A program made the translations under genes and the position numbers. Under the pieces are notes generated by a model. It was not told the origin of the DNA and did no database searches. It worked only from the letters and a program-made list of their open reading frames with translations. Of a stretch of 52,125 bases of DNA, positions 15,721 through 52,125 are shown piece by piece. The DNA comes from a virus: positions 1 to 52,125 of IMG/VR virus record IMGVR_UViG_3300025642_000006; one strand, given 5' to 3'. Every line of letters starts with the position of its first letter. The stretch's first letter is position 1.

Positions 15721-17563
15721 TTGGAAAGGCCCGAGCGACTGGACTTACTTCTTCTTCACAGAGGATGGGTGTCAGGAGCTTACATACACACAGTACCTTG
15801 GAGATTTTCCAGAAACGGGTGAGGAGTCGTATCTAATGAGATACGTCAAGGACAGGGTTAATAGAGAAACCTTGTTCTTGGGAAGAACCATACTAAGTTA
15901 TGCGAAGTCATGGTTGAAGAATAATAGGGCTATGCGTGAGCATTTTGTTACGCTAAAGAAAGAGCAGGAAGAGAATCCGCTACAGTTCTATTGTCCTAAT
16001 GGAAAAGGCCAGCTAGCGTTTCTGAATGATAAGAACTATACCATAAGCGGCATGGTAGCCCCGAATCGTACTGGGAAAAGTACTTGTGCGTGGATAGACC
16101 TGTTACTTGATATTATACCATGCGATCCTACGTGGAAACTCTTTACAGAACATGGGGTAAAGTTTAGGCCATTTGCTCCGCCATCAGATGGATACGTTAC
16201 AGCTGTAGCTACCTATGAGCTTGTAAACTTAAAGAGTACGATATGGCCTCAGATCATTCGCAAGTGGACTCCAGTAAAGTATCTGGAAGAATATGGTATA
16301 AGGGGTAAGGGCGGAAGGCCGATCAACTGGAAGGATAGCCCTAGAATACAAACCAAACATCTTAATTTATGGATGATGTACTACAGCATGAGCCAGACGC
16401 CGTATGAATCGCAGGCCATTGATAGGTTCATGTGGGATGAGCAACCGGAAGAGGCTAAGTTTGATGGAGCAGATGAGCGGTTAAGAACTCGTAATGGAAG
16501 GCATGTATTCAGTTTAACTCCTCATAAGGTAGAAGGACGCGCAGAGACCGGAGCCGGGACGTTTGTGCATGATATGGCACTAGGCAATACTACAAAGGGT
16601 CATTCGATCGAGTTCTACAACTGTTCGCTACTGGACGACGTTCCAGATTGGATTTATCCAGAAATACAGAAGAAGGCCGCATTTAGGAAGTGGGTAGAAG
16701 AACCGATTAAGAACCATGACGAGAAGTCACGCAAAGAAGGTCGAGCCAGGTTATACGGAGAATGGCATGAAACCGGTGGGTTGGTATATGATGAGTGGGA
16801 TAGGGCTATACACCTTGTGGACCCATTCGACATACCGCCTAACTGGACTAGATATAGAAGCATGGATTGGGGAAGAGTAAACCCTACTGCGTGTCTATAC
16901 TATGCAGTGAATGAAATAGGAGATGTATATTTCTATGATATGTATTATAGGCATAACGCCCTAGTATCGGAGAGTGCGTTAGATATAATTACGAAGTCAG
17001 GGAATGTTAGACAACGTAATGGACGAATATCAGACACTAGGAATAGTGAAATAGTCGAGTGCTACGAAGAGGTGCAGAAAACGAAGTTCGTTAAGACTGT
17101 ATTAGATAGCAGGACATTCGCCAGCAAGCAGCCTAATTCATCACTGACTATAGGGCGACTATATCAGCTTAATGGACTATATGTTCGGCCTGCATCTGGG
17201 GAAACAACAGAGGCTACAATTCCTATCGTGAAGGAATGGCTAAAGCCCGACTTTAATAAGATACATCCACATACCGGCAAACCCGGAAAGCCGAGGATTT
17301 TCTTTTTTAGAACGCTATCAGTATTTATTAAGCATATAGAGCATTATATTAACACTCCGGTAGTGCGTAAGGGTAAGGACGGGGGAACACGGTTAGCAGA
17401 GCGTCCTAGAGCGGTAGATGACCACGATATGGACGCCTTTAGGTATGCCATTATAGATCGTCCGCGATATATCGATGGATATAATTATGTTGACAGTTTA
17501 GACGAAGAGAGTAATACGCAAAATAATAAGAGGCCATTATATGACAAATACACCGGCTATTAA
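15713..17563 (+). CDS. terL: Terminase large subunit
   Basis: 616 aa packaging motor and headful/cohesive-end nuclease. ATPase: Walker A APNRTGKS (116-123), Walker B RFMWDEQP (238-245), and coupling motif FSLTP (266-270). RNase H-like nuclease: SMDWG (Asp385), VLDS (Asp465) and DDHDMDAFRY (569-578), the three acidic clusters expected. It docks on the portal. The next gene starts inside its 3' end. No clear small subunit accompanies it. Confidence 0.93.
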   Translation: MISWKGPSDWTYFFFTEDGCQELTYTQYLGDFPETGEESYLMRYVKDRVNRETLFLGRTILSYAKSWLKNNRAMREHFVTLKKEQEENPLQFYCPNGKGQLAFLNDKNYTISGMVAPNRTGKSTCAWIDLLLDIIPCDPTWKLFTEHGVKFRPFAPPSDGYVTAVATYELVNLKSTIWPQIIRKWTPVKYLEEYGIRGKGGRPINWKDSPRIQTKHLNLWMMYYSMSQTPYESQAIDRFMWDEQPEEAKFDGADERLRTRNGRHVFSLTPHKVEGRAETGAGTFVHDMALGNTTKGHSIEFYNCSLLDDVPDWIYPEIQKKAAFRKWVEEPIKNHDEKSRKEGRARLYGEWHETGGLVYDEWDRAIHLVDPFDIPPNWTRYRSMDWGRVNPTACLYYAVNEIGDVYFYDMYYRHNALVSESALDIITKSGNVRQRNGRISDTRNSEIVECYEEVQKTKFVKTVLDSRTFASKQPNSSLTIGRLYQLNGLYVRPASGETTEATIPIVKEWLKPDFNKIHPHTGKPGKPRIFFFRTLSVFIKHIEHYINTPVVRKGKDGGTRLAERPRAVDDHDMDAFRYAIIDRPRYIDGYNYVDSLDEESNTQNNKRPLYDKYTGY

Positions 17564-17888
17564 GGAAATGCTGCCGCTTGGTAACTACGTTCTTGTAAAC
17601 AAGGCTATAACAGACCATCTGCGCGGAGCTAATGATGAGATATTGCTTTATATGCCAGAATCAGCAGTTCAAACTACAAGCTGGTGTGAAGTACTAGATG
17701 TAGGCCCGAAGTGTAAGTATATACGAAAAGAACATTGCGACGGGAAAACATTCGTCATTGTTCCTGAGTTAGATAATCGGATGGAAGTTGTTCGTATTGG
17801 AGATGGAAACGAATACCGCTTCGTTAAGGAAGATGTATTCTTAGACAAAGGCCCAAACCGAGGGTTTATTTATAGGAAGGAAGATTGA
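17541..17888 (+). CDS. GroES-like co-chaperonin
   Basis: 115 aa with the order of GroES features: an N-terminal LPLGNYVLVNKAI strand, a central flexible loop, SWCEVLDVGPKCKYI (the conserved G-x-V-x-x-V-G strand), then VVRIGDGNEYRFVKEDVFL at the C-terminus. T4 gp31 and similar phage GroES analogues remodel host GroEL to fold the capsid protein. Its position between terminase and portal fits a head-assembly role. It overlaps terL by 23 bp (RBS AAGAGG). No GroEL gene in the window, so it would work with host GroEL. Confidence 0.72.
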   Translation: MTNTPAIKEMLPLGNYVLVNKAITDHLRGANDEILLYMPESAVQTTSWCEVLDVGPKCKYIRKEHCDGKTFVIVPELDNRMEVVRIGDGNEYRFVKEDVFLDKGPNRGFIYRKED

Positions 17889-20002
17889 TGAAGAAACAAA
17901 AAAGCAGCATTCAAAATCTGGCAATCAATAAAGACATTGTAACCAAGTTCGTTGATTCAGCAAATTCTGAATATAATCGTGTAAAATCTCTCCGAGAGCA
18001 GTTCGAGGACTCGTGGGAAGTTGCAGATTATATGTATAAGGCTGCACAAAATAGAACCATCAATGCCGCCGAGGTGTCTAAGGGCATGAATCTTAAAGAC
18101 GATCCTAGAGCAAATCTTGGTTCTCCCATGTTCTGGCGTCAAATATCCCAAATTGCTTCCGAGGGTGTGGCAGTAGAGAATAGCCGCGATGTTCCATTTA
18201 AGTTCAATCCTATCGTAAACCAGAACGTACAGTATTCGAGCGATCAGGGGCAGGCGGAGTCAGACCAGCTAAACTCGCTTGTTCGCTATACGATGAAGCA
18301 TGATAAGTACAAGGAGAAATCTACGTGCTTCTGGACCAGTTTGGCGAAGTATGGAAACATTCCGTATATGATTAACTGGGCATTAGAAGTTCGGACGATT
18401 GACGTTGAAGAGCCGGTCTATGAGGTCATAACCGATGAAGCAGGCAACGAAGTAACCAAAATGACCGGAAGAAAGCGCGTGTCTAAAGAGGTTGTCGTAA
18501 AGGCGCACCCCGAACAGCGCATGTTGAATATCTTTGATATATTCGCCGATCCATACATTGGCGACCTTCAAAGCCAGTCCTGTGTAATTGTTCCTTCTAT
18601 TGTTAATAAATCGGCCATTTATAACGAAGTACGAAAAGGAATCTATGACGAAGACGCTTACGATCTACTCAGCGATGACGATGCTTGGGATGGACAAGAA
18701 GGTGTTGCATTCCGTCAACGGTTGCTAGAAAACAATGATAAGACGTGGGAAGAGAGTAAAGGCATAGACCAATATCTAAAATGGGATATATGGTTTCGCG
18801 CACCTATTGAGAATGGCAAGTGGGATGAAAAAGCAGTGCCAGTGTTGTATTTTGCAACAATCATAGGGAATACACTCGATGGCGGCAAGGTGATGACCAT
18901 CATTCGGAATCCAGACCCAGATGATGAAATACCCATTCGTATGATTCATCTATACCCAGATGATGCCGACCTTCTTTATCATGTAGCACCGGCTGATATT
19001 ATGCGCTCTAATTACAGCGCAGAATGCTCCTTGAAGTGTCTTACCATAGATAACATGGCCTTAGCCTGTAGACCTCCTACAACGATTCTAGAGGGAGAAA
19101 TGTACGTTAAGCCGGATGATCTTAAATGGGATGCCTCTGGCCGGGTATGGACAATAATAAGAGAAGGCGCCATACAGCAGATGGCTATTAGGGATAATAC
19201 GCAGCAAACGGTTGGATTGCTGGAATACTTCAAGGCTGAATCTCAGTCCGCGCTTGGTACGGATAAGAATCGGCTTGGAGAGAGCTTTGGAGCTAGAACT
19301 AGCGCATTGGAAGCAAATAACATCTTCCAGCTATCCTCTCAGCCTTCATTGGCTTGGATTAACTACGTTCTACAGCAGAAAATAGGATTCTTTGCCCAAA
19401 AGACTAAAAGTCTTTGGAGAGCGTATGGAACACCTTCTGTAATCAATGCTATTACGGACATGCCATTGCTGCCCAATGTAAGCCCAACGGATATGATGGG
19501 CGACTTTGACACACAGATTGATATTGTGGATGAATATATCAATGATATGCAAGCGCAACAGATGCTTATGGGATTGGTAAGAATGGTTGCACAGGCTCCA
19601 CAGCTTCTTAAATCAGATACCCACGAAATAGATATTGGCGCATTGATGAAGGATATATTCTCTAAATCTGGTCTGAATGGAGATAAATACATTCGCGCAA
19701 GACAGGATGGAGATGCAGCTAGATGGGCAGAGATGGAAAATGTAGCCATGACGCAGAATGGACAGGCTACAGTGGTTAACGTAGATGATAACGATTATAT
19801 CCACCTTCGTATCCATAAGAGCTACAGGATGCGTTATAACGGCTTTGAGGAGCAATTCCCGAACCTATCCTACCTTGATGCTCATATTCTTGAACACGAG
19901 GCTATTATTCAGTCTGAATCAGGCGATGCAGCCGCGCAAGCCCCTAACGGAGAAGTTCCAGTTGGTGGGGAAATGGCAGGCGCTATGTCGGTGGCACAAT
20001 GA
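17888..20002 (+). CDS. Portal protein
   Basis: 704 aa from ATG 17888 (GGAAGGAAGA upstream; a TTG one codon earlier is less likely). Size, position after TerL and before scaffold and capsid, and features such as EQRMLNIFDIFADPYIGDLQ and the mid-protein wing/stem region with HLYPDDADLLYHVAP match the large podovirus-type portal family. It forms the dodecameric vertex for packaging and tail attachment. The Ala/Gly-rich C-terminus is probably the flexible barrel tail. Confidence 0.85.
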   Translation: MKKQKSSIQNLAINKDIVTKFVDSANSEYNRVKSLREQFEDSWEVADYMYKAAQNRTINAAEVSKGMNLKDDPRANLGSPMFWRQISQIASEGVAVENSRDVPFKFNPIVNQNVQYSSDQGQAESDQLNSLVRYTMKHDKYKEKSTCFWTSLAKYGNIPYMINWALEVRTIDVEEPVYEVITDEAGNEVTKMTGRKRVSKEVVVKAHPEQRMLNIFDIFADPYIGDLQSQSCVIVPSIVNKSAIYNEVRKGIYDEDAYDLLSDDDAWDGQEGVAFRQRLLENNDKTWEESKGIDQYLKWDIWFRAPIENGKWDEKAVPVLYFATIIGNTLDGGKVMTIIRNPDPDDEIPIRMIHLYPDDADLLYHVAPADIMRSNYSAECSLKCLTIDNMALACRPPTTILEGEMYVKPDDLKWDASGRVWTIIREGAIQQMAIRDNTQQTVGLLEYFKAESQSALGTDKNRLGESFGARTSALEANNIFQLSSQPSLAWINYVLQQKIGFFAQKTKSLWRAYGTPSVINAITDMPLLPNVSPTDMMGDFDTQIDIVDEYINDMQAQQMLMGLVRMVAQAPQLLKSDTHEIDIGALMKDIFSKSGLNGDKYIRARQDGDAARWAEMENVAMTQNGQATVVNVDDNDYIHLRIHKSYRMRYNGFEEQFPNLSYLDAHILEHEAIIQSESGDAAAQAPNGEVPVGGEMAGAMSVAQ

Positions 20003-21878: not shown

Positions 21879-22859
21879 ATGGCTGATTTTTCTATGACGG
21901 CAAGCGCCAAGAGCGCTATTCAATATAGTGGAGCAGATACCCATACTCGTGAACTGTTCGTTGAGTCTTTGGCTCGCGGACTGGACATGGTATGGAAACG
22001 TGACTTCACGGACAAACCGAAACAAGGTATGCTTTATATGTCCGAAGGGACTGTGAAACAACCTACGGCTAAGTTCCAGACCTTCCGCACGATTGGCGGA
22101 GTTGTGGGGCAGAACCGTGATACGGATGATATGGACTTTGTGACCCGTGCCGATGGCTTTGGGTTTGAAGTTGTTACCTATCCGTACCGTCAGGGTATCA
22201 AGATCGAACGCGAGCTTGAGGAAACGGACGATGTTGGCGTTATTCGCGGAATGCAGTCTGATCTGGCCGAGAACGCGCTTATGACGCAGGAATATGCAGT
22301 TGCCGATGTATTCAATCGTTCAATTGCACCTACGTCTGCGCCATTGCTGGCTGATGATGGAATGTATCTGATTGATTCAGATCGTCCTAACGCTAATCCA
22401 GAAGCCGGAACGTGGTCGAATGAGGAATCTACCTCTGCGATTACGCCGACCTCCTTGGCTACTGCTCAACTCAACGCTCGTAATACGACTGATGAGAACG
22501 GGTTCCCATATCCTCGGAATATCGTTAAGCTCCTCATTCACAAGAATGACGAGAAAACGGTTGAAGAGATTATGAAGTCGGATAAGAATCCGTTGAATGC
22601 GAACAATACATACAACACTATGTATAATCGCTTCAAATGGGAAGTCTACGACTACCTGACGACTCGGAGTATCTTCTATATTATGGACGATCCCAAGTCG
22701 GAGAAGAACGAATTGCGCTTCTACTGGCGCAAAAAGCCTGAGTTCAAAACCTGGGTTGGCGACAATCCTGATGTTACGAGTCAGCGCGTTCGTTTCATCT
22801 TTGGTATTGGCTGTGGCTCGCCTCGCAAGGTATGGCGTGGTGGTCTCGTTACGGCGTAA
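21879..22859 (+). CDS. Major capsid protein (HK97 fold)
   Basis: 326 aa, RBS AAGGGAG. Features of HK97/Mu-type major head proteins: N-terminal MADFSMTASAKSAIQYSG, then TRADGFGFEVVTYPYRQGIK (E-loop/P-domain region), an A-domain with PRNIVKLLIHKNDEKTVEEI, and the C-terminal RVRFIFGIGCGSPRKVWRGG. It lacks an obvious cleaved prohead-protease domain, and no protease gene is present, so scaffold removal is presumably by exit. It is the most abundant structural protein by position and role. Confidence 0.85.
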   Translation: MADFSMTASAKSAIQYSGADTHTRELFVESLARGLDMVWKRDFTDKPKQGMLYMSEGTVKQPTAKFQTFRTIGGVVGQNRDTDDMDFVTRADGFGFEVVTYPYRQGIKIERELEETDDVGVIRGMQSDLAENALMTQEYAVADVFNRSIAPTSAPLLADDGMYLIDSDRPNANPEAGTWSNEESTSAITPTSLATAQLNARNTTDENGFPYPRNIVKLLIHKNDEKTVEEIMKSDKNPLNANNTYNTMYNRFKWEVYDYLTTRSIFYIMDDPKSEKNELRFYWRKKPEFKTWVGDNPDVTSQRVRFIFGIGCGSPRKVWRGGLVTA

Positions 22860-22939: not shown

Positions 22940-22967
22940 GCCCATTAAAATACTAAAGGAGTATGAA

Positions 22968-23645
22968 ATGCGAAACTTGATATACATTGGAATGCTTTGC
23001 ATTATTGGTACGGCAATGGCCGCTACTGATGCAACAGTGTTTACTAGCGTACAAATAGATGACTTGTTAATAGATGACTCGTTGATCATTCCGGTATCTA
23101 CGTCAGCTCCGGCAAGCTCTGTATCTGCTACAGGTACTGTGACTGCTGCTGCTGCCGTTGCATTGGCAAGTGGAGAGACGGTTACGATTAACGACCAAAC
23201 CTATACGTTTACGACTAATACGCTGAGCGCTGCGAATCAAATTAAAATAGTCTCAGCTCCAGTAGGGGCTGCAGGCCACACTAACTCGGTTGCTATGACG
23301 AACTTGTTTCTAGCAGTAACCGTTGGTGGTACTAATAATCCTACCCTGTATTATAGTACGACGGTAAAGCCAGCTAATGTTGCGATTACAAAGGAAAGTG
23401 TAAGCGTCATTAAGGTTGCCTCCTCGTCCGGCTATCATGGTACGATTGGTAATGCGTTGCCACTTCTAGCGACACCAGTTGCTATAGAAGATGGAACGAA
23501 TCTGACTGTTAGCGGTTCTGGAACCTTGATTAGTGGAACCGATGGAACGGTTGGCGATGCTGGAACGATAGTACTGTATAGCACGGGCTTGTACTTTACT
23601 ATTCAGGACTCTACTGCTGGCGACGCAGTATGGACTACTAAATAG
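22968..23645 (+). CDS. Secreted beta-rich virion-region protein with Sec signal peptide, 225 aa
   Basis: ATG at 22968 preceded by AAAGGAG, so the upstream frame extension is not used. MRNLIYIGMLCIIGTAMAA is a clean signal peptide with an AMA site. The mature part contains the phage structural motif ETVTINDQTYTF, then SAANQIKIVSAPVGAAGHTN, a domain common in phage virion proteins, followed by Gly/Thr-rich beta repeats. A signal peptide on a head-tail-region gene is unusual; several later virion genes share it. Sits directly downstream of the capsid gene. Confidence 0.7.
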   Translation: MRNLIYIGMLCIIGTAMAATDATVFTSVQIDDLLIDDSLIIPVSTSAPASSVSATGTVTAAAAVALASGETVTINDQTYTFTTNTLSAANQIKIVSAPVGAAGHTNSVAMTNLFLAVTVGGTNNPTLYYSTTVKPANVAITKESVSVIKVASSSGYHGTIGNALPLLATPVAIEDGTNLTVSGSGTLISGTDGTVGDAGTIVLYSTGLYFTIQDSTAGDAVWTTK

Positions 23646-23654
23646 GATGTAATT

Positions 23655-24008
23655 GTGATTCATACATATAAGTTGTATGAAAGGGTTCGAAGGGAGTTCG
23701 GCACACAGGCCGACTCCCAACCCTTTAGTGATGCCTTTTTCTCGGCACTATTAAGCATCTCGAATGATTTGGATAACAAAGCATTTGTTGAGATGGTTGC
23801 TCCAGAAACAATGGAAGTAAACATAGATATAGACGAGAAGTATTACAGCGCGATTTATAGAGGCTTAAAGTACTATATCAATAATGGGCCTCAGTGGAAT
23901 GTAGAGCAGAAGGGCGATTTGAGGGCTGAATACTTTATGGAACTGCACAGAGCGCAGTCTATGTATTACGCTGATAATGCACCCTCTCCTTATGATCTAT
24001 CTGATTAA
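23655..24008 (+). CDS. Head-tail connector-like protein, 117 aa
   Basis: GTG start with AGGATG upstream; no other nearby start. Mostly helical, with QPFSDAFFSALLSISNDLDN and AIYRGLKYYINNG. Small adaptor/gatekeeper-like proteins of this size usually follow the capsid gene. The sequence match is not clear, so the call rests on length, fold class and position. Confidence 0.5.
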   Translation: MIHTYKLYERVRREFGTQADSQPFSDAFFSALLSISNDLDNKAFVEMVAPETMEVNIDIDEKYYSAIYRGLKYYINNGPQWNVEQKGDLRAEYFMELHRAQSMYYADNAPSPYDLSD

Positions 24009-24027: not shown

Positions 24028-26532
24028 ATGGCTGATCGCTTTGACGATAGACTTGACTTGGATACGCTTAGCATTTCTCGCGCTAAATTCGTAGAACACA
24101 AACTATCCGGGTATAGTGACGATGCTGACGCTGTCATTCTATTCTCTGTTGCGGAGTCGCTTTCGGAAGAAGCTCTTGCGTATCTGAAACAAAACCATTT
24201 CTCCTACACGGACGAAACGCTTGATTTCAGAAAACTTATCGGCACGTATTACACCAAAGAACTAAAATACGACCGCAAACTTGGCGGAGTTATTCAGGCC
24301 TTAGTCCGCAACTACGATCGTTCCAGAACGTATAAGTCTGTAGACGCCTACGGAAGCAACAAGTGGACCTACTCAGTAAACGGAGCGCTGATAGAGCCTA
24401 CCATTGACGTTGGCAAGGCTATACTTGAGGCAGCATTCCCTGAAATCGTAGATGCGAACGTAACACAGAGCGAGACAAGGTATGAACAGAAAATAGATGG
24501 TCTTTGGTATGGAGAGGTAAATCTTGTAGAGGTCGCTCAGGCCGTTGTTGATTACGAGTTCGTAACGGACTATGACCAGATAAAGATTAGCGCATCCGCA
24601 GGGTATGACACAACGACCTATTCATCCGGAACTGGACACACCCATACAAGCAGCTCAGGAAGAAGCACCAGTCGCAGCGCCAGCACCTCCAGCTCTTCCG
24701 GCACCAGCGAGGTAAACTCTGAGTCCAGTGGAACTGGTTCTTCGCAAGCATCAACGACGGGAACGTCAATATCTACCTCAAGCTCGTCCGGACATTCGTC
24801 AGAGTCCTCAAGCTCGTCGGGTCTCTCTTCGTCTGTATCAAGTTCAAGTGGAGTAACTAGCTCAACGTCTAGCGCATCGGGAAGGTCTTCGTCAGCGTAT
24901 CGTTCAAGCGGGACAAGCGCGTCAGACACAAGCAGCACCGGAACCACAAACTCAGACTCATCCTCAACCGGAACGTCCCAGACCAACACCTCTACATCCG
25001 GAACGTCAAGCTCTAGGTCCAGCTTCAGCGGAACAAATAATTCAAACGCAAGTTCAAACGGAACCACAATATCGAACTCCAGCTCAAGCGGGGAGTCTTC
25101 TTCGAGATCAAGCTCAAGCGGGGAGTCTACTAGATTTTCGCACTCTGCGTATAGCAGAAACGGTGCTTCAACAAGCTCAAGTACCGGAACGTCGGACGTC
25201 GATTCTACTTCTAGCGCAAACTCTTCTTCTACTGGAGAGAGCAGTTCAAGCAGCACCGACAATTCTACAGGAGCATCTTCCACAACCTCAAATTCTACTG
25301 GGACCAGCTCTAGCGCCTCCCAATCAGACGCAAGTACTGAGGGCACAAGCACTAGAAGCGACAACCCAAAATCTGTAAGAATCGTAACGAAAACTTATAG
25401 CTCTTCAGGAAGCTCGACGTCGCACAACATCTTCAGGAGTAAAGTCCCAGACTCTAGCAAAAGCGGTTCTTCTTCTTCTTCTTCGACTAAGTCATCCAAA
25501 AGCAAAAGCACATCGACAGAATCAATAGCCGGAACTTTCAGTTCGCATGAGACTGGCTCTACTCACGCCCGTAGAACGTCTTCGTCTACTGGGGCAAGTA
25601 CTGGAATAAGAAGTAGCACAAGTTATGGAAACGGAACAAGAAGTTCCACAAGAAATACAACTGGGTCAAGCACTTCTAGTACATCAAGAACAGGAGCATC
25701 TACTAGTTCTGGTACCAGAAGTACAACGTCGTCGTCAGCCGGCTCGTCAACTATATCAAATAGTGGAACGTCTTCGTCTAATTCCAGACGGTCGCAGAGT
25801 AGCGATGGAATGTCGCATAGATCTTCTAGTCAGACTGGAACAAGCTCAAGGACGGCCAGTTCATCCGGCACTGGATCAAGGACATCGAGTCAGTCCGGAA
25901 AGACGTCTAGCAAGTCAAGTAGGATGGGGTCGAGTTCATCTACTACGACGCAGAGTGGAGAGGGCTCAAGAAGTTCTGTACAGTCGGGGACCGGAGCTAG
26001 GAGATCTTCCGAGTCGGGAACCTCAAGCAGGAACACGAGCCAGACTGGAACATCAAATAGAAACTCTAGCCAGACCGGAACAAGTAATAGAAACTCAAGT
26101 CGTTCTGGAACCAATCATAGCGTCTCAAGTTCAACTGGTCATAGCACAAGAATCTCAAGCGAGACAGGGAGAAGTTATAGGAGCTCCAGCCAGACAGGTA
26201 CTAGCAATGTAAACTCCAGTAGAAGCGGAAGCAGTACAAGCGTAACAAACGCAGATACAACTAATACCGGAGGAGTTAGACATACTCTAAGCACCAGCAA
26301 AAACATCACGATCACAACAATTACTTGGAGGCTGTTTGTAAAGCACCACCTAACGTATGAAGCCGCAATGATAGAGGCATACGGAAGTGGCGGAGTTCAG
26401 GCCAGCGTTCAAGAGGTGACATTTGGGGTTGCAAAAATCTACAGGTCGTCTTATGCTAAGCTATACAAGGTTCATGCCAATAGGCAGACCTCTGATTACT
26501 TGAATCCGACTCTGGAGTCGCTTCCTGAATAA
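24028..26532 (+). CDS. Giant Ser/Thr decapeptide-repeat protein
   Basis: 834 aa. Residues 1-190 are a folded, charged domain of unknown family (FRKLIGTYYTKELKYDRKLG; DVGKAILEAAFPEIVDANVT). Residues ~193-740 are almost only Ser, Thr, Gly plus one charged or polar residue per repeat, with Gly every 10 residues (GTSxxxSSxS; examples GTSQTNTSTS, GTSNRNSSQT). Fourteen consecutive exact 10-residue spacings occur in each half. The first half varies with Asn, Asp and Glu, the second with Arg and Lys. The C-terminal ~90 residues are folded again (TWRLFVKHHLTYEAAMIEAY). Synonymous Ser codons differ between repeats, so the period is held at protein level. Resembles serine-rich repeat adhesins, which are O-glycosylated; a glycosyltransferase gene follows. 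Virion location is inferred. Confidence 0.8.
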   Translation: MADRFDDRLDLDTLSISRAKFVEHKLSGYSDDADAVILFSVAESLSEEALAYLKQNHFSYTDETLDFRKLIGTYYTKELKYDRKLGGVIQALVRNYDRSRTYKSVDAYGSNKWTYSVNGALIEPTIDVGKAILEAAFPEIVDANVTQSETRYEQKIDGLWYGEVNLVEVAQAVVDYEFVTDYDQIKISASAGYDTTTYSSGTGHTHTSSSGRSTSRSASTSSSSGTSEVNSESSGTGSSQASTTGTSISTSSSSGHSSESSSSSGLSSSVSSSSGVTSSTSSASGRSSSAYRSSGTSASDTSSTGTTNSDSSSTGTSQTNTSTSGTSSSRSSFSGTNNSNASSNGTTISNSSSSGESSSRSSSSGESTRFSHSAYSRNGASTSSSTGTSDVDSTSSANSSSTGESSSSSTDNSTGASSTTSNSTGTSSSASQSDASTEGTSTRSDNPKSVRIVTKTYSSSGSSTSHNIFRSKVPDSSKSGSSSSSSTKSSKSKSTSTESIAGTFSSHETGSTHARRTSSSTGASTGIRSSTSYGNGTRSSTRNTTGSSTSSTSRTGASTSSGTRSTTSSSAGSSTISNSGTSSSNSRRSQSSDGMSHRSSSQTGTSSRTASSSGTGSRTSSQSGKTSSKSSRMGSSSSTTTQSGEGSRSSVQSGTGARRSSESGTSSRNTSQTGTSNRNSSQTGTSNRNSSRSGTNHSVSSSTGHSTRISSETGRSYRSSSQTGTSNVNSSRSGSSTSVTNADTTNTGGVRHTLSTSKNITITTITWRLFVKHHLTYEAAMIEAYGSGGVQASVQEVTFGVAKIYRSSYAKLYKVHANRQTSDYLNPTLESLPE
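24604..26246 (+). repeat. Ser/Thr decapeptide (30-bp) protein repeat array
   Basis: Coding repeat array inside the preceding gene: dominant period 10 codons with an invariant Gly, interrupted near the middle by a Lys/Ser-rich stretch containing KSVRIVTKTYSSSGSS. DNA identity between units is low because all six Ser codons and several Thr and Gly codons are mixed, unlike the near-identical propeller repeats at 46744. Confidence 0.85.
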
Positions 26533-26553
26533 CAACAAACAAGGGAGAACGGG

Positions 26554-27312
26554 ATGGATGTATTATACGTCGTAAGGAAATCCGACTGGAATCAGGAGTT
26601 GAAATACTCACTTAGAAGTGTTTGTGAGAACCTAAGTGGTACTGATAAGGTTGTTATTTGCGGACACCTTCCAAGATATATAGACCCTAGCATGGTTAAT
26701 CACATAGAGTGGATATTCCCGGAATACGACCCATCTAAAGAGAATGAACTGCTTATCAAGAAGCTGGTCTATGCAGTTAAAAACGGAGAACTTTCAGAAG
26801 ACTTCGTTTATATGTGTGATGATTTTTTGTTTATCAAAGAGGTTGAGCAGCAGGACATAAAGCCACTCGTGCTTGAGGACATGAACAAGATTTACCGTGG
26901 AAATGGCGATGGCAACAACTGGATCAAGATGCTTTGGAAGACATTTGACTGGGTGAAGGCTACCGGTGGATACGGATGGAACTGCGAGTCTCATACTCCA
27001 AAGATATTCAACAGAGACAAGTTCTTAGAGATGATGGAGCGTTATCGTCCTGCTTGGGAAAACTCAGTTCACATGTGCGATGCGATTTGTTATGAGACGG
27101 CCTATTTCAACTATGTTGGAATAGATAAGCAAGATGTTAGATATGGATACGGAGATCGGGTCGGTATACTTGAGTGGCATGCAGAGGAAGAGATAGTTAA
27201 TTCGTTAGCCGAACACGCAACCTATATGTATTACAACGATGCAGGGCTTTCAACAGCACTAAAGAACTGGATAGAACATAGATTTCCAAACAAGAGTAAA
27301 TATGAGTTATGA
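26554..27312 (+). CDS. Glycosyltransferase-like protein (Stealth/GT-A type)
   Basis: 252 aa, RBS AAGGGAGA. MDVLYVVRKSDWNQELKYSL then RSVCENLSGTDKVVICGHLP is the opening of Stealth-like sugar-phosphate/hexose transferases, and FVYMCDDFLFIKEV supplies the nucleotide-sugar/metal DD motif. HTPKIFNRDKFLEMMERYRP and the later GILEWHAEEE agree with the family. Enzymes of this class move a sugar or sugar phosphate onto an acceptor. It starts 21 bp after the Ser/Thr-repeat gene and overlaps the acidic gene, so those products are natural candidate acceptors or partners. Confidence 0.72.
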   Translation: MDVLYVVRKSDWNQELKYSLRSVCENLSGTDKVVICGHLPRYIDPSMVNHIEWIFPEYDPSKENELLIKKLVYAVKNGELSEDFVYMCDDFLFIKEVEQQDIKPLVLEDMNKIYRGNGDGNNWIKMLWKTFDWVKATGGYGWNCESHTPKIFNRDKFLEMMERYRPAWENSVHMCDAICYETAYFNYVGIDKQDVRYGYGDRVGILEWHAEEEIVNSLAEHATYMYYNDAGLSTALKNWIEHRFPNKSKYEL

Positions 27313-28232
27313 GTGATTCTGGATTTCAGTCAACTGGGCAAGACCTAAGCATTCCTTGGAGAGGGGATTCTGAGGAGGACTTGTCGATTCCAGAGCCTTC
27401 TATCAGTAACATTGTTATTGAAGAGGTAGGTCCAAGCGCATCTCGCCAAGAGCCAGAACCAGATGTTGATGATTCAATACTGCTAGAACGCAGAGATGAC
27501 TCAGAGAACGACGATGGTTCTTATCTAGATCAGGGCTATGAGGCTCCATACGAGATCATGGGCGTAGATGACTACGATATGGAAGACGAATACTTCTCGA
27601 TGCCTGACGAGCTTCCAGACGAAGAAGACGATATACTGGTTGATGATATAGATGCTCCAGATGCAGAAGAAGTTGTTGTTGACGATGCAGAGATGTTTGA
27701 GCCTGATGATGCTGAAGCAGCCCCGCCGGGAGCAGTTGTTCCAGAAGAAGACGACGAGCCATCTATGGATGATGAAGAGTCCGACTACGAGGATTTTCCG
27801 ATAGAGCCCGAAGAGATTGATAACGAAGTGGACGTAGAATCCGTAGAGAGCCCTACAGAAGACGAGGCCGTTGTTGTTTCGGACTCAGAACCTGCTGAAG
27901 AAGTAGACGAGGAAGATGATGCAGATATAGAGACCGTAGAGGGAGAGGATTACTCTGCCATAGACATTGAGCATAGACGCAGGGATCAGGATGTTACCGG
28001 AGTTCAGGATGAGCTTCCAGAAGAAGATGCGGAGGGCTCGTCGTTCAGCGGGGTTTATTGGTTCAAGGGGACGCGGTATGAGCTTTCTGGGACGGCCAAG
28101 GCGTATTGGTATCACAGCGAGGCAGCCAACGCTGGCTACTGGAGCGACGGCCCGATGCCTAGCCCGATGCCGGACATGCAATACTGGAGGGCAACGGCAG
28201 AATGCAACGCTGTAGAATATATTTCGTGCTGA
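27309..28232 (+). CDS. Highly acidic protein with C-terminal folded domain, 307 aa
   Basis: Starts by ATGA overlap with the glycosyltransferase. Residues 1-240 are dominated by Asp/Glu with Pro and Val (PDELPDEEDDILVDDIDAPD; EPAEEVDEEDDADIETVEGE) and are surely disordered. The last ~60 residues form a small aromatic domain (SFSGVYWFKGTRYELSGTAK, GYWSDGPMPSPMPDMQYWRA) ending in Cys. The strong negative charge could balance the Arg/Lys-rich half of the repeat protein. Base composition becomes visibly GC-richer from about 28020, inside the C-terminal domain. Function unknown. Confidence 0.68.
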   Translation: MSDSGFQSTGQDLSIPWRGDSEEDLSIPEPSISNIVIEEVGPSASRQEPEPDVDDSILLERRDDSENDDGSYLDQGYEAPYEIMGVDDYDMEDEYFSMPDELPDEEDDILVDDIDAPDAEEVVVDDAEMFEPDDAEAAPPGAVVPEEDDEPSMDDEESDYEDFPIEPEEIDNEVDVESVESPTEDEAVVVSDSEPAEEVDEEDDADIETVEGEDYSAIDIEHRRRDQDVTGVQDELPEEDAEGSSFSGVYWFKGTRYELSGTAKAYWYHSEAANAGYWSDGPMPSPMPDMQYWRATAECNAVEYISC

Positions 28233-30118
28233 TTGCGCTGGCCCTGCTTCCAACGCTGGCAAGCGCCGAGGGCTGGACGGCTGCGGCGTGGGATTTCGAG
28301 CATACTTGGTTCGCAAGCAACGCGCTTGTTACAAGGCCGATGTACGGGTACAGCGTTGAGGACGTAATCACCCAGACAAGTTTCACGAACTCAATCCCCA
28401 GGCTCGTGACGAAGGGCTATACGTTTCGGGGATGGTCGCAATCAGAAATGGACCCGACGACGAGCGGCGTTGTCTCGGTGTGTTACACGAATGTTTACAC
28501 GAACAACCTGCACCCGTTCGATTGCAGGATTACGACCCGCGCCTATTCAACAAACTTTATTTACGCAACAAACGCTTATGTGTTCGGGTCGGTCACGGGA
28601 GGCGTGATTACCGTGCTGCACCGAACTGAAACCGGGATGTACGCAACGAACATCCTGATGCAGCTTGACACGCTTCGGGATTATGAAATGTACATGGCTA
28701 TCTGGGAGCGAGCAAGGGCCACAAAGAACCAGTCGGTTATAAATGCAGCGCTCTATCTAAAGTGGTCAAGTGGGCTATACAGGCTGAGAAAGGTAATGAG
28801 TTGGATCGGGTATTATTGTGCTTACTTCCTAGATGCAAGCTGGTCGTCGTCGACAGCATCTAACAATTTTGATTTTAGCTCATATTTCGCGAGCGAAACA
28901 AACTTCCCAATCTATGGCGGCGAATATGTCGGGTATAATTATGATATTCCAGCATGGAATACGACTAACCTTGCCGTTTCTATTGGCGCACCGTCGAATC
29001 TTTATGGGTCAATATGGATTTATTCGGCAAATGTTAATAAGCACAAAGCGCCGTCCGGGGAGGAGTACGGAAGAGCGGTCACGTCTGAGGTAAATATAAT
29101 CAAATATCCGGGAGTTGTTTATTTAAACGATCCGAATTTAATTATCACAAACATTGCCTACAGGTACGACGGGACAACGACAAACGTTTCTGGAACAAAC
29201 GGCCAGCTTGTGTCCTTTATTACGGCAAACACAAACTATATCATAGAGGGGTTTACCGAGTGGGACTATGGCTACAGGTATGTCACGTCAACACTGAGTA
29301 GGATGGTGCTTGTGAAGGATACCCCTGCGTGGAGTACGAACGGGACGCTTAAAAATTACGAATACAGCGAAGGCCCGCCGGACTCACAATATGACAGCTT
29401 CAAAAGTTTATTTGACGAGTCGGACCACGGGAACACATCGTACTGGGGCTCGTCATCGTCGGTAGGCACCTATGATGTATATTGTAAGAAGGATGTTTAT
29501 CCACATCATGATGACTTTTTCGGAAGTACGCCGTTTGGTGCATGCGCCCGCGCACTGGTTACGGAAAATAAAATAATTCATACGTCGTCGTATTCCCTAA
29601 CGAATAGCACGTTCGTGGGGTATGATGTAGACTTTTATATAGCCATGAAAATGCCAAGATATGTAACCAGCTCAGTGTCGTGTTTTATAACGACCGAGGC
29701 CACGCCGACCGGTCTTAGCTATGCCACCATTTCAAGCCTTCCCCTTCCTATCTCTGCTGAGCAGGCGGTCTACGAAACGGAAGCATATCGAGGATTTATA
29801 GGATCAAGCTCGGTTCTGGCAACAGGGACGGTGGCCTATTCCGAAATGATATATGGGATAAACATATTATCAACGCTGGTGTCAGACGGAGATATAAGCA
29901 TGTCAATGATGGTCGGGTATAATCCCTACCAAACAAACGACATTGATATAACAAAGTTTTCATACGAGGCGCTCCCGTCTGGTACAAAATCGCCATACAC
30001 GGATAATGCCGGAGACATCGGGCCGTGGTGGTGGGCTATATTCGGAAGAACGCGCCCGGAGTACACCCCTTACGTCATCCGCAACTACGCAGTAACCAAC
30101 GGATTCAAGTATTATTAA
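28202..30118 (+). CDS. Secreted Asn/Thr-rich protein with Sec signal peptide, 638 aa
   Basis: Signal peptide from MQRCRIYFVLIALALLP to an ASA site. The mature part is Asn/Thr/Tyr-rich (YATNAYVFGSVTGG, NTTNLAVSIG) with a short KGYTFRGWSQSE stretch like InlB B-repeats, which occur in secreted surface proteins. No enzyme motif seen. Start overlaps the acidic gene by 31 bp and its RBS is distant, so translation may be coupled. GC content is higher than in the genes on either side. Probably a tail/fibre or surface component; not recognised. Confidence 0.65.
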   Translation: MQRCRIYFVLIALALLPTLASAEGWTAAAWDFEHTWFASNALVTRPMYGYSVEDVITQTSFTNSIPRLVTKGYTFRGWSQSEMDPTTSGVVSVCYTNVYTNNLHPFDCRITTRAYSTNFIYATNAYVFGSVTGGVITVLHRTETGMYATNILMQLDTLRDYEMYMAIWERARATKNQSVINAALYLKWSSGLYRLRKVMSWIGYYCAYFLDASWSSSTASNNFDFSSYFASETNFPIYGGEYVGYNYDIPAWNTTNLAVSIGAPSNLYGSIWIYSANVNKHKAPSGEEYGRAVTSEVNIIKYPGVVYLNDPNLIITNIAYRYDGTTTNVSGTNGQLVSFITANTNYIIEGFTEWDYGYRYVTSTLSRMVLVKDTPAWSTNGTLKNYEYSEGPPDSQYDSFKSLFDESDHGNTSYWGSSSSVGTYDVYCKKDVYPHHDDFFGSTPFGACARALVTENKIIHTSSYSLTNSTFVGYDVDFYIAMKMPRYVTSSVSCFITTEATPTGLSYATISSLPLPISAEQAVYETEAYRGFIGSSSVLATGTVAYSEMIYGINILSTLVSDGDISMSMMVGYNPYQTNDIDITKFSYEALPSGTKSPYTDNAGDIGPWWWAIFGRTRPEYTPYVIRNYAVTNGFKYY

Positions 30119-31758: not shown

Positions 31759-34700
31759 ATGGCTGAGTCTTTGTATAGCGTAAATAAGCGCATCGAAGAA
31801 TACGATCCTTCCTTGTTAAGCCTTGGAGAAAGGCTTGCGCTAAACGATCCACAACTACGTCAAAGCGTTCAGGATACTGCTACTAGACAACAAGAGAAGC
31901 AGCAATACGAAGCCAAGAAGGATCAGTTCAGGGTAAAGGCTACGGGCGCATTCGATCCTCCAGAACCCACTACAGGGGATGTTATAGGCGATGTATTATC
32001 CGACTATAAAGACGGATTGGACTATGTACTAGGCAGTCCTACTAGAGACACCATTAAGGGTGCGCTAACTCTCTTTGGCGGTGATATAGACCGCAACAAG
32101 CCTATTGAAGAGTGGACCACACGCGATTACATGATTCAGGACATGGACGACCAGAATGCTCGTGCTAATGAATGGGCGCAGGGCAGTCGTAAACTAATCA
32201 TGGATGAATATGGTACAGGCGCAGGCGTAGCATGGGGTACTACGATGGCTGGATACCAGACAGCCGCCGCCATTGTAGGCACAATCTATGGTTCTAAAGC
32301 AATTCCTACAGGCGCAGCATTTACAGCACTTGGAGCAACAGGAAAGACTGGTGCAGCTTTAGCGAACATGACGCGAATTGGCGCATACAAGTTTGTTACT
32401 ACTCCGGGAACGATGGAAGAACGTGCTACGCAAGCGGCAAGATACGTCCTGTATGCTTTAACTCCATTTCTAAGCGGTCCGGCAGCTGGAAAGATCGCAG
32501 AACTAATCGGGTCTACAGCAAAGCAAGCCGATTATATGGCTAAGTTTATAGACTTTTTCGATAATACTGCTATTTCAGCAGGATTAGGTTTATATAGCGA
32601 AGTCGAATCTCAGGCGAAGCAAACAGCGCAGCAAGACGGCAAGCAATGGGAAAACCTCTCCACTGTGGAGAAGTTTTACTATAGGCTAGAAAAGATTACT
32701 CCAATTGCTCTTACAGACCTTATTTTCTCCTTATCCACAAAGGCGCAAAAACCACTATCACAAATTAAGGCCGAACTATCAGCCGATCCTGTTGGTGCGG
32801 AGTTAATCAAAGGCATAGACCTTAGCAAAGGTTCAGAGAAGCAGTTCCTTAAAGTCTTTCGTGGGGACTATGATTCCAAATCAGAAGTAGAATCCAAGAA
32901 GATACTAGCAGAGAACTTGGTACAGAAAAGCGGCGACACACTCAAAGCCGACGCTATGAACATTACTGGTGTTCTATCAGGGATCAAAGAGCTAGACACT
33001 CCTGACAAGCTCAGAACAGCCCTTGTTACGCTTCGCAACCTTGGTTTATCACAGGGAACAGCGCAAGAAGCATTAACCAAGAATGGCGATACACCTAGAG
33101 AAGGTGGAATTACAGACCGTGAGCGGTTCGTCATTGGAACCTTAATGCCAGAACGCATGGAAGCATTCGACAAGGATATTGAGAATAACAAGCGAGCCAA
33201 GCAGGAATATGAGCAGGATGAGGTTCTTACCGCTAGTGTGATGAAAGACCTAACGGCTGGTGGCACGATAGGCATGGAGAATGGACTATCCACACCAGAA
33301 GTAATGGCGAACATTGGCAAGCGAACAGGCGAAACTCCATCCGAAACATTGGCTAGGTCCAGCAAGTCTTTAGAGAGTGTAGCTCAAAGGGTATTAGAGA
33401 ACCGTCTGCTAGCGGCAAAACAAAATGGAATTGTATATACTTCTCAAGAAGCAGCGAAGGATATTGAAGTACTATTTAAAGAACTGGGATATGATGATGC
33501 CGATATTAAGGCATGGAAGAAAGACCCCGGCGACTTATTTAAAGTTGAAGCAGAACCAGCAAAGAGCATTTTCGATCAGCGCATAGCAGAAGCACAGGGA
33601 AAGGCCGAGTGGGGAAAATACGAGCAAGTCTTGCAGCAGAAGATTCTAGCCATTGAGGATATGGGCGAGAACGCTGACATGAAGGTTGCCATAGACGAGA
33701 CTAGGGACGACCTCTATCCTAGTGCTACAGAGGCCGAGAGAGCATCATTAGACCAATGGCACAAAGACGCTCAACGCATGGTACCTGTACAGGGTAAAGA
33801 AGGAATCGAACAGCGAGCCGTTAGGCTTAGTGATGAGCAAAAAGACTTCAATACCAAGGCGGATCAGGCATTTGACGAAGCGTGGGGAAATCTGGTCAGC
33901 AAGGGTGCGGCAGAAAAAGCAACGATGGGCGAAGTTGCCGACGAAGTCATTGAACGTATGGGAAGTAAATACGATCCTAGCGTAGTCCAACAGTGGCGCA
34001 ATGCTAACGTCCCTGTAGAAGGCCAGCAATCAGGATATGACAAGCGTATCCAGTCTGGTGAAAGAACGCAGAACATCCAGCAAGCCTATACGAAGTCTAT
34101 TCAAGATGGAACAATCCCGCTTACACGCGACGAGCGAATCAGTTTCATTGCAGACAAACTAGGCATTTCAAAGCAAGAAGCTACGCAAGCAGTATCAGAA
34201 TCAGAGCCTAAGCCGGAAGTGATTACGCCTAAAGAAGCGGACTATGCTAAGACATATACAGCAGAGCAGGCAAAGAATGCAGCAACAGCTAGAGCATTAG
34301 AACTATATTCAGAGCATATTAACGGAGCATTCAAGGATGAATCCGGTCCTAATCGAACAGATATTCTAGCGTCTATCATTGCAGAAGAGATGAAGGCTAA
34401 TCATCCTAATTTCAGCAAAGCAGACATAAAGGCCGCTATTACTGAAAAGATGCCGTGGAAGAGTTTTAAGCAATCTCCCGAGATGAAGCTATTGAAGATA
34501 ATGGAACAGAAGGAAGTTGCGCTAGAAGACGCAGAACGTAACGCAGCAACAGCGGAAGCCAAGGCTAAGGCTACTCAGGACAAGGCGGACTTTGAACTGG
34601 CAAGAGAATCACAGCGAATTATCTATTCAAAGCAGGCCACAAAAGAAGCTATTGCAATGGCCAATGAGAGATGGCCGTCCGCCTTCAACAATACAAAGAG

Positions 34701-37700
34701 AGCTGCCGCACTAGAGTATCTTGGCAAGATGTCGGAAGATTATGGGGCGAAACTTACTCCAAACAAAGAGGTTTTAGATAGTGCGTTTGCTGAAAAGAAA
34801 CTAACAGCCGCAGAAAAGGCCGATGCAGAGAATCGGGCCAATCAATTATATCAGAAGGCAGAAGAAACGTATGGACTTGCTAAGAAGGCTATGGAGGGTC
34901 AGGAAGATGCAGACAATCCAATAGCTATTGCAAGGAACGCAGTTATCGCAGCAAACAGGATAGATTATCCAAAAGGCAAGAAGGCCGATCTCATTGACTA
35001 TATTCGGGCCAAGAGCATAGACGAGATGTATAAGGCCGGAGATAATGTCATAGAAGCCGATTTTGGAGCAGCAGGAGGCGTTAAGCCATCCGAACCGGGT
35101 CTTAGGGTGGTTGGAGAACCCGACGCCGCACAGACGCTTAAAACGACTCCTAGCCCCACTACGGCAAAGGTAGATGCGAATGATAAAGCAAAGGTAGATG
35201 CGGCGGCAGCTAAGATAGCAGAAGAAGCAAAGACTTTGCCTAATGGTGGCACTTTGGCAGAGCTACGGGATAGACTCAAGAAGGCTGGAAGAACGAATGG
35301 CGAAAGCATAGGGGAAGCCAAAACGATTCAGGATAATGCAAGGAAGTCTCAGATAGATAAGGCGAAGGCCAACATTGATCCAGCATCTAAGCCTACTACA
35401 GCAATATGGAGAACTGGCAAGGGATATGGATATGAAGTAACCATTAAGTCGATTGAAAACGGAGTGGCTACGCTAGACAATGGCGCAAAGGTCAATGTAA
35501 GTGAGTTGTATAATAAGACACACGCGAATAGATCAATACCCAAATCTACAACCGGAATAGATAAGGATTTGATCGTAACTGGTAAGATTGAATACGCCCT
35601 TGACGTACTAGCCGATAAGATTGCAACATCCAAGAATCAGGGCGAAGCAGAAAAGGCCATCCTACGAAACGACGTTTTAGGCAAGATTGTTTATGGTAAG
35701 GCATACGATCTAAAGGTCGAGTTGTTGAAGCAGGAATTAAACGACTTCCTGAAAAACGATAAAGCAATTACAGACCCAAATAGAAACTCTATTGATTCCT
35801 ACAATAAGAACGACAATGCCGAGAGAGCAGAACTATCTAGGGCCATAGATCAGGTATTTGCTAATAAATTAACTGATCTTGCAAGAAAACGTCTTCCGTT
35901 GGAGGCAGAAGTAAGCACGCGCGAAACGATTCTATATTCTATATTTGGCAAAAGCTATATGCCCAGAAATGGCGACGAATTTAGCGAAAACCGCTCTCGT
36001 GAGTGGTATAATAAAAGAACCTTTGGTGGAAGCATGGGAACTAGGGTCGATACCGATCCGTCTTTAGCTCAAGCTCCAAAAATAGTCGAAGATGTTCAGA
36101 AAGAACTCATCCGGTTAATGAAGGGCGATAAAAACCTAATAGCCTTATTAAATACGTCCAAAAACGAAAAAGAGTTTATTGCTTCTGTAAATGAATATGT
36201 TGAGAAGAATCAAGTGGCACCCGGAGCGAAGGAAGCTAAGAACAAGGATGCGGTAGCACTAAAAGCATCAGTACAAAGCGCAGCGAAATTTCTAGAGGAG
36301 GTCGGCTCTGACAGGTTTCTTGAGATATTGATTGCTGCAAGAGATAATTATAATGCCAAGGGAGAGGTAGGCAAAGGCGACATTACTGCATCAGGTCTTA
36401 AAGAGCTTATTGGAGATAATCCTTTAGGCGTCAAGATTACCAATGCCCCAGAGAGTGCAGACAAAGACACCCTAGCATCCTATAGCAAAGACGGAATAGT
36501 CATCTACGCTGACCGCATGACTAGTCTAGCTCAAGCATGGCGTATCATGCTAGATGAAGTGAAGCATCGCGGGGTAGAGATATTGGGACGTGAAGGAAAG
36601 GGAAGCTGGCTCGATCGGATTATGAGCGGCTATGGCAAAGAACGGTGGACCGGGAAGCTGGAAGAAACGCTTCGTAAATACACCGACTGGGATGGTAAGC
36701 AGGATGCCAAAGAATATTTTGAGACTCTAAAAGAAGACAAGGGGCGGGTATTCGAGGAAATGGTAGTACATGCCAAGACGGAAATGCCTACAGCCTACCG
36801 TAAGATTATGTCCGACCTAAAACTTAGGGCAAGCAAGTTATTCCCCGGAGTGAAACTATCGGACAAAGACCTTCAAGCGCAGCTATGGAAAGCATTAGAA
36901 GCAGGCGTAAAGGATGAGGCATTTGAAGCAGCAGAAGGCATTCGTAGCGAAAAGGGGGCGTATGAGAAGAAGGAGCGTATCTTTGAAACAGCTACAACCA
37001 AATTTGGCAGCGTAAGCAAGGCCATTGAAGCCCGTGATGCAGCAGGCTACAAAGGTACTTGGATGAAGTTCGTAGCAGAGAATGCGCCAGCTAGGAATGC
37101 TCCTACTACCGAACAGCAAGGAAACCGCCTGTCGGACGTACTATTTAAAGACGTTATGACTCATAAACCACTAGCCGATTCAACGATTGACTCTATTCCG
37201 GGTCTACGTCAGGCAAGAGATGTTTTACATAGAGCTACAGGCGCAGGCGAAACACTTCCATCAGCCTTATCCCGAATGGGCAAGAAGATTAGCCAACGTG
37301 CAGCAGAAGACTTTAGCGCAGTAATTGGCGAGAACGCGCGTATTTATATGGGAGTGCAGAAGGTAAAGAACTCGAACCGTAAGTTGACCAAAAGCATAGG
37401 CTTGGACCGTATGGACAAGAATCTAGGCAAGGATGCGTCAGGACAGGTCATTAGAGGCACCAAGGCGATGAGATTGACGCTATCAGCCTATTCTCGCATG
37501 GGAAGGCTTAGCGAGGTCGTTAGAGCCTATCAGAACGCTTCTGGAGGCATAGACGCAAAAACCAAGGCAGCTAATGATGCTATAGCCAAGATTTCTACTC
37601 AAGAGGGAATCTCGGAAGCCCAATTAAAGAAGACTGTATATGCCTTCATGGGCAAGAAGGATACCGTAGATGGAAAGAGCGTCCTTCGCTATGACACCAA

Positions 37701-51970: not shown

Positions 51971-52125
51971 ATGAACGGAACAATCGCAGAGAAGACTGAC
52001 GGTGTGGGCGAAATGAACATTGCCGGGATGGTTCCGTCTCCATTCGCCGAGCCATCGAGGTGCCCGCGTATGAGTGATCTGTTGCTATGGTCGAGAGATC
52101 GGAAGTTCGGATTGTCTCTGAATGA
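51971..52125 (+). CDS. 5' part of the JAB peptidase gene (continues at the left end)
   Basis: ATG at 51971 follows AAAGGGAAAAAGAAC. It is in frame with the start at base 9 after the 121-bp overlap (52013 equals base 9), adding MNGTIAEKTDGVGE to the N-terminus. Confidence 0.7.
   Translation, partial: MNGTIAEKTDGVGEMNIAGMVPSPFAEPSRCPRMSDLLLWSRDRKFGLSLN
52005..52125. repeat. Right copy of the 121-bp terminal repeat
   Basis: Identical to bases 1-121; see the left copy. Confidence 0.93.

Follow-up and report, generated by a model that had tools for sequence, protein, structure and literature searches.

The virus record IMGVR_UViG_3300025642_000006 of IMG/VR is complete in the 52,125 bases analysed here (the window), and contains three adjoining genes that encode a Ser/Thr-rich repeat protein, a relative of the Stealth sugar-phosphate transferases (the enzyme), and an acidic protein. 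A preliminary description of this DNA proposed that the three form a phage glycoprotein system. Its account of the three open reading frames (ORFs), their lengths, the 21-bp gap between the repeat and enzyme genes, and the 4-bp overlap of the enzyme and acidic genes is accurate. A Shine-Dalgarno-like AAGGGAG lies upstream of the enzyme ATG. The acidic protein is indeed rich in Asp and Glu by inspection; searches of Pfam and PHROG with 27309-28232 gave no match. The features of the locus are as follows.

24028-26532, plus strand: repeat protein, 834 residues; frame intact in three contigs
24028-24597, plus strand: its N-terminal domain, residues 1-190, likely virion-anchoring; residues 13-90 align with relatives
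24628-25437, plus strand: Ser/Thr/Gly array block 1, residues 201-470; one Gly parity, 26/26
24650-25582, plus strand: hypervariable patch; all 12 differences from contig L002, with every amino-acid change at an odd offset from Gly
25465-26271, plus strand: array block 2, residues 480-748; one Gly parity, 31/31
26272-26529, plus strand: C-terminal non-repetitive part, residues 749-834, defined from the sequence; no detectable relative
26554-27312, plus strand: Stealth-fold sugar-phosphate-transferase relative, 252 residues, with a changed active site (profile matches, model, alignment)
27309-28232, plus strand: acidic protein, 307 residues; no known family
28202-30118, plus strand: 638-residue protein with a signal-peptide-like N-terminus; missing from this place in relatives

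Between residues 199 and 770 of the repeat protein, 58% of the residues are Ser or Thr, and Gly recurs with a marked regularity. The spacing of one Gly per ten residues noted previously is borne out by 35 exact G-x9-G decads against 5.7 expected (lag 10, z 13.1), with further maxima at lag 20 (z 10.9) and lag 30 (z 10.0). The pattern is stricter than this, since the even lags are filled and the odd ones are empty or nearly so. All 57 Gly keep a single parity within their block; the sole odd spacing, of 19 residues, falls at the junction of the two blocks, and every other non-decad spacing is even (2, 4, 6, 8, 12, 14, 16, or 22). Thr and Asn favour the parity opposite to Gly, and Arg favours that of Gly itself (Fisher P 1e-6, 0.003, and 0.004, respectively). 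Because all six types of Ser codon are mixed in the array and Tandem Repeats Finder detects just 2.7 copies in a DNA-level repetition that is weak, the periodicity is maintained at the level of the protein. The strict Gly parity suggests that the array is an alternating, extended beta-type shaft, with residues alternating between two faces, rather than a mucin-like coil. Block 2, searched by sequence against solved structures, had no match, and tblastn searches of 50,697 phage records with the N-terminal domain, the capsid, or the portal likewise returned nothing. A degenerate DNA scan of all viral contigs for three successive GT-type decads recovered copies of the array itself (L133 and L143); the other matches were mostly five-residue GTTGT-type repeats, stop-containing runs, and other low-complexity repeats.

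The parity of the array can be compared with natural variation, as there are two contigs (L002 and L003) nearly identical to the window. L002 differs from the window at 12 of 10,865 positions, and all 12 lie within the array (P ~2e-10 under a random spread). Eleven codons are changed, ten of them non-synonymously, and every one of the ten amino-acid changes falls at an odd offset from the preceding Gly, that is, on the other face of the array from Gly; the single synonymous change is at an even offset. (The Gly parity pattern was on record prior to inspection of the L002 differences.) Given that 53% of random non-synonymous changes would be expected at odd offsets, ten out of ten corresponds to P 0.0017. 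The enzyme gene is identical in both other contigs. In a separate observation, L003 has 17 differences from the window, 6 of them clustered in ~160 bp (34506-34668) of the gene for a 2531-residue protein.

The description of the second gene product as Stealth-like is sound. The 252-residue enzyme matches Stealth_CR2 with E 1.2e-8 (35.5 bits, below the curated cut-off of 39.4), Stealth_CR3 with E 0.03, and phrog_7999, annotated in the database as of unknown function, with E 1.6e-21 across residues 1-251 (profile positions 1-228 of 230). Its structural model has a mean predicted local distance difference test (pLDDT) score of 84, and in Foldseek the 13 best matches among solved structures are all Stealth phosphotransferases, including GNPTAB (7s6n, 9bgf; E 7e-10, template modeling score TMq 0.72) and CpsY (8j2n; E 5e-9, TM 0.67/0.65). 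The same GNPTAB and CpsY chains are recovered by sequence using the family profile. Thus, the enzyme is predicted to have a Stealth GT-A-like fold, and we propose that it descends from sugar-1-phosphate transferases.

The active site is another matter. In an alignment of the enzyme with 22 phage relatives, several catalytic positions are retained: both Asp residues of the NDD motif (D89 and D90), the base His (H147, with P149 in an HxP motif kept in all 22 relatives), the CR2 Arg (R8), and a candidate Mn-binding Asn (N228). The Asn of NDD, present in 22/22 relatives, is instead C88, and the CR3 Arg of the RTxYGN motif, present in 21/22, is E181; residues 166-195 contain no Arg at all. (This Arg lies 29-30 residues past the base His in the relatives L008 and L015, a spacing equal to that of human H956-R986 and of CpsY R419.) Further changes are Phe for Gly185, Arg196 for the Lys of the DVK motif, and Tyr226 for the Ser of the last motif. 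Human GNPTAB loses its activity with N406A or with D408A, and with R986K it is left with notably less or none; CpsY activity drops 200-500-fold with N322A and disappears with R419K (PMC11418123, PMC10668966). This is, then, a protein of Stealth fold that lacks two residues by which the active site is defined, the NDD Asn and the CR3 Arg, and it may have a new specificity or carry out no transfer at all. K70, near the donor-binding Glu, and N228 could compensate for the lost residues.

The three-gene order was not found to be conserved in other phages. At 30 further viral loci with the enzyme (~28 of them distinct), the available flanks encode no protein with a 60-residue stretch that is half or more Ser/Thr. 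Twelve larger enzyme-bearing records were read over all or almost all of their length, and only one of them (G036, L032) has equally Ser/Thr-rich proteins, in which TTTP-type linkers rather than decads are present. Conversely, 18 records with other Ser/Thr/Gly repeats contain no Stealth enzyme. The relatives of the enzyme adjoin terminase and portal in the mycobacteriophages Fionnbharth and Boilgate and in L009, the portal in L035, and tape measure and minor tail genes in L022 and L027. These settings, together with those of L018 and L029 below, would suit a general role in the modification of virion or surface molecules but not that of a dedicated partner for a Ser/Thr array. In two other records the Stealth gene has a second sugar enzyme nearby: in L029 (3881-10585) it adjoins the major head protein and a galactosyltransferase-like protein, phrog_1721, and in L018 (5273-7338) it adjoins the glycosyltransferase phrog_1579; both regions are candidate virion-decoration cassettes.

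The locus lies in the structural gene run of a podovirus-like phage, in which terminase, Cpn10-like, portal, scaffold-like, and capsid genes are followed by those for a 257-residue protein, a 117-residue adaptor candidate, and the repeat protein. The ends of the window are identical over 121 bp, and therefore the genome is complete or circularly assembled. Scans for promoters and terminators gave matches no commoner than in shuffled sequence. The corresponding features are given below.

17885-20002, plus strand: portal protein, SU10 type (SU10_portal, E 7e-13)
21879-22859, plus strand: major capsid protein (Phage_capsid_4, E 2e-5; phrog_371, E 2e-4)
23655-24008, plus strand: head-tail adaptor candidate, 117 residues; the relatives' version carries an inserted domain
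52005-52125, no strand: terminal direct repeat, 121 bp, an exact copy of 1-121

Portal searches identified distant relatives (L119, L120, L121, L123, and L124; portal identity 34-40%), of which L120 and L123/L124 span this locus and keep the order terminase, portal, scaffold, capsid, adaptor, repeat protein. Residues 13-90 of the repeat protein match the same-position protein of L120 and L123 (hhalign E 2e-4; Smith-Waterman z 7.8 and 9.2), which is 598 residues long in L120 and 411 in L123/L124; no similarity to the relatives was found for the C-terminal part. In these relatives both ends of the adaptor candidate are shared with the window, and a domain is inserted between them (local alignment z 4.9-8.0). 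This domain has ~190 residues (L123 12931-13851 and L120 11735-12658, against 23655-24008 of the window). The locus in L120 and L123/L124 contains no Ser/Thr array, enzyme, acidic gene, or 638-residue gene, and a counterpart of a 514-residue gene follows the same-position gene within ~0.25 kb. The Stealth enzyme was not found anywhere in the relatives' records, which may be fragments. Because they are absent there, the array and enzyme, together with the acidic and 638-residue genes, were gained jointly at this locus or lost jointly in the relatives. The preliminary description had taken two observations as telling against a linked function: an enzyme with unrelated neighbours and a repeat protein without the enzyme. 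The first is what is seen; the second is not, as the relatives lack both.

Other features of the structural run deserve mention in their own right. A GroES/Cpn10-like gene lies immediately upstream of the portal gene in the window (17541-17888, E 0.0019) and at the same place in L120 (5248-5790, E 3.5e-7) and L123 (4320-4877, E 7e-6), both above the Pfam cut-off; the L119 ORF at this position (970-1272) has no Pfam match. The gene is a candidate for a phage co-chaperonin. Two proteins of the structural region, encoded by 28202-30118 and 22959-23645, have signal-peptide-like starts (MQRCRIYFVLIALALLPTLASA and MRNLIYIGMLCIIGTAMA), which are unusual among phage virion genes; the second also has a CBM_5_12 match below threshold (E 0.002). 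The 2531-residue protein mentioned above (31759-39354) lies within the structural run, and neither of its halves matches PHROG; it is possibly an internal or ejected virion protein.

Three things are new relative to the preliminary description: the strictly even Gly spacing, the altered active site of the enzyme, and the locus-specific gain. Gene order, homology, parity, the pattern of variation, the predicted fold, and the residue changes were observed directly or computed, and from them we infer the location in the virion, the fibre shape, and any modification. Taken as a whole, they point to a virion fibre peculiar to this lineage, in which one face is constant and the other variable, a reading to which we assign a probability of about 0.5. 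The repeat protein would be a fibre or bristle of the phage, anchored at the head-tail junction or tail by its conserved N-terminal domain, as homology and gene position suggest. The ~550 residues of its Ser/Thr/Gly array would form the alternating beta-type shaft in two blocks, with the face of Gly/Ser parity packed or shared and invariant, and the opposite face exposed, strain-variable, and presumably in contact with host surfaces or particles. The block of array, enzyme, acidic, and 638-residue genes would have been gained here in this lineage, and the enzyme may decorate the fibre hydroxyls.

Several points weigh against this interpretation. The presence of the repeat protein in the particle is itself deduced from sequence comparison. 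AlphaFold yields no usable shaft model for the whole protein (pLDDT 32). The even Gly spacing could be a leftover of growth by two-codon units. The evidence from variation comes from one pair of contigs, in which the non-synonymous excess is not significant (P 0.16); L003 has just one array difference, in common with L002; and the clustered differences could stem from recombination with another strain or from an assembly fault in the repeats.

Of the earlier proposal of a glycoprotein system, a phage structural protein (from the structural gene run and the shared N-terminal domain) and an adjoining sugar-transferase relative are supported, and both genes are absent together from distant relatives; a conserved three-gene system or a dedicated repeat/enzyme pair is not supported. 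Likewise, the idea of an O-glycosylated bristle survives as a fibre, while the loss of the NDD Asn and the CR3 Arg speaks against the glycosylation, and an ordered beta-type shaft needs no glycans. The explanation that competes best, at somewhat less than even odds, is that the enzyme has its target elsewhere (a host surface glycan or a different virion protein) or survives as a remnant that binds sugar or is inactive; its position beside the repeat gene would then be a coincidence in a gene-accumulating region. The many different neighbours of its relatives, the lost catalytic residues, and the fact that, set against L120/L123, everything from 26.5 to 30.1 kb is inserted favour this, but an intact 252-residue ORF without differences in two contigs and with a confident fold argues that the gene has been maintained, at least recently.

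A dedicated glycosylation, in which the enzyme would draw sugar-1-phosphate or sugar from a nucleotide sugar and attach it to array Ser/Thr, making a proteophosphoglycan bristle for shielding or adhesion, is rather doubtful. The genes adjoin and are both missing from relatives; H147, D89/D90, R8, and N228 are kept; phage relatives of the enzyme lie among head and tail genes, in L018 and L029 beside other glycosyltransferases; and mycobacteriophage virions provide a precedent. In Stealth chemistry an acceptor hydroxyl attacks the beta-phosphate (PMC11418123), and GlcNAc-P-Ser occurs on protein in Dictyostelium, which has the GNPTAB-like gpt1 (PMC6994554). Against this are the CDD, E181, and Arg196 substitutions, given what N406A, R986K, and R419K do to activity, and the absence of the repeat/enzyme pairing from every other phage examined. 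Because the active site is altered, modification of the repeat protein by its neighbour is itself no better than doubtful; if it occurs, the product expected from Stealth chemistry is sugar-phosphate-Ser/Thr and not an ordinary O-glycan. The fuller version, a phage proteophosphoglycan fibre in which a re-tuned Stealth enzyme puts sugar-1-phosphates on the exposed variable face of the beta-shaft, is improbable.

A reading of the array as a flexible, mucin-like spacer of low complexity, lacking ordered structure, is unlikely, although slightly less so than that fuller version. The high Ser/Thr content of the array would suit such a spacer, and AlphaFold predicts no secondary structure across the array; yet the parity of 57 Gly and the face-specific substitutions are unexpected for a coil, and AlphaFold, here given three sequences, is uninformative for such arrays. 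Variation by a diversity-generating retroelement or similar programmed mutagenesis, suggested by clustered and mostly non-synonymous changes, has very little to commend it, as the patch is 0.9 kb long and the window contains no donor sequence; a self-encoded element is largely refuted by the absence of reverse transcriptase (PF00078) from the genome, with positive controls.

Should the array prove to be a shaft with two faces, it would represent a fibre design made almost purely of Ser, Thr, and Gly, whose variable positions can be read from the sequence. If the neighbouring enzyme does modify it, the locus would provide a phage route to protein phosphoglycosylation and a simple virion-coating system, and on the proteophosphoglycan reading variation would be confined to one face of the fibre. 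To our knowledge, no protein phosphoglycosylation has been described before in a phage. Whatever the outcome, a fold can now be assigned to the compact phage Stealth family phrog_7999, with its residues mapped and its recurrence in structural runs noted, so that its role becomes testable in cultured mycobacteriophages.

Among known systems, the serine-rich repeat adhesins (SRRP, with GtfA/GtfB) resemble the locus only in Ser-rich composition and a nearby sugar-transferase relative. The window has no GtfA/B, LPXTG, or accessory secretion genes (the repeat protein ends in ...NPTLESLPE, with no LPXTG anchor), and no other glycosyltransferase was present among the window proteins scanned, which omitted some small ORFs; the array is Gly-phased and the context is that of a phage. 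A second comparison is mycobacteriophage virion glycosylation, which acts on the C-terminal ends of capsid and tail-tube subunits (Freeman et al. 2023, as cited in PMC12619734). There, too, a phage-coded sugar enzyme lies in the structural region. We know of no Ser/Thr array in that system. The same-position proteins of L120 and L123/L124 share the N-terminal domain and the place after the adaptor, whereas their middle is a different variable module without a Ser/Thr array and no enzyme follows downstream. Phrog_7999 and the gp6-type proteins of Fionnbharth and Boilgate are full-length homologues of the enzyme (~30% identity) in phage structural runs; they retain RTxYGN, DVK, and NDD and have no adjoining array. 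Finally, the enzyme differs from GNPTAB and CpsY in having Cys for the NDD Asn, no CR3 Arg, and a minimal length of 252 residues without spacers, and it is like them in its fold, both NDD Asp residues, the base His, the CR2 Arg, and the candidate Mn-binding Asn.

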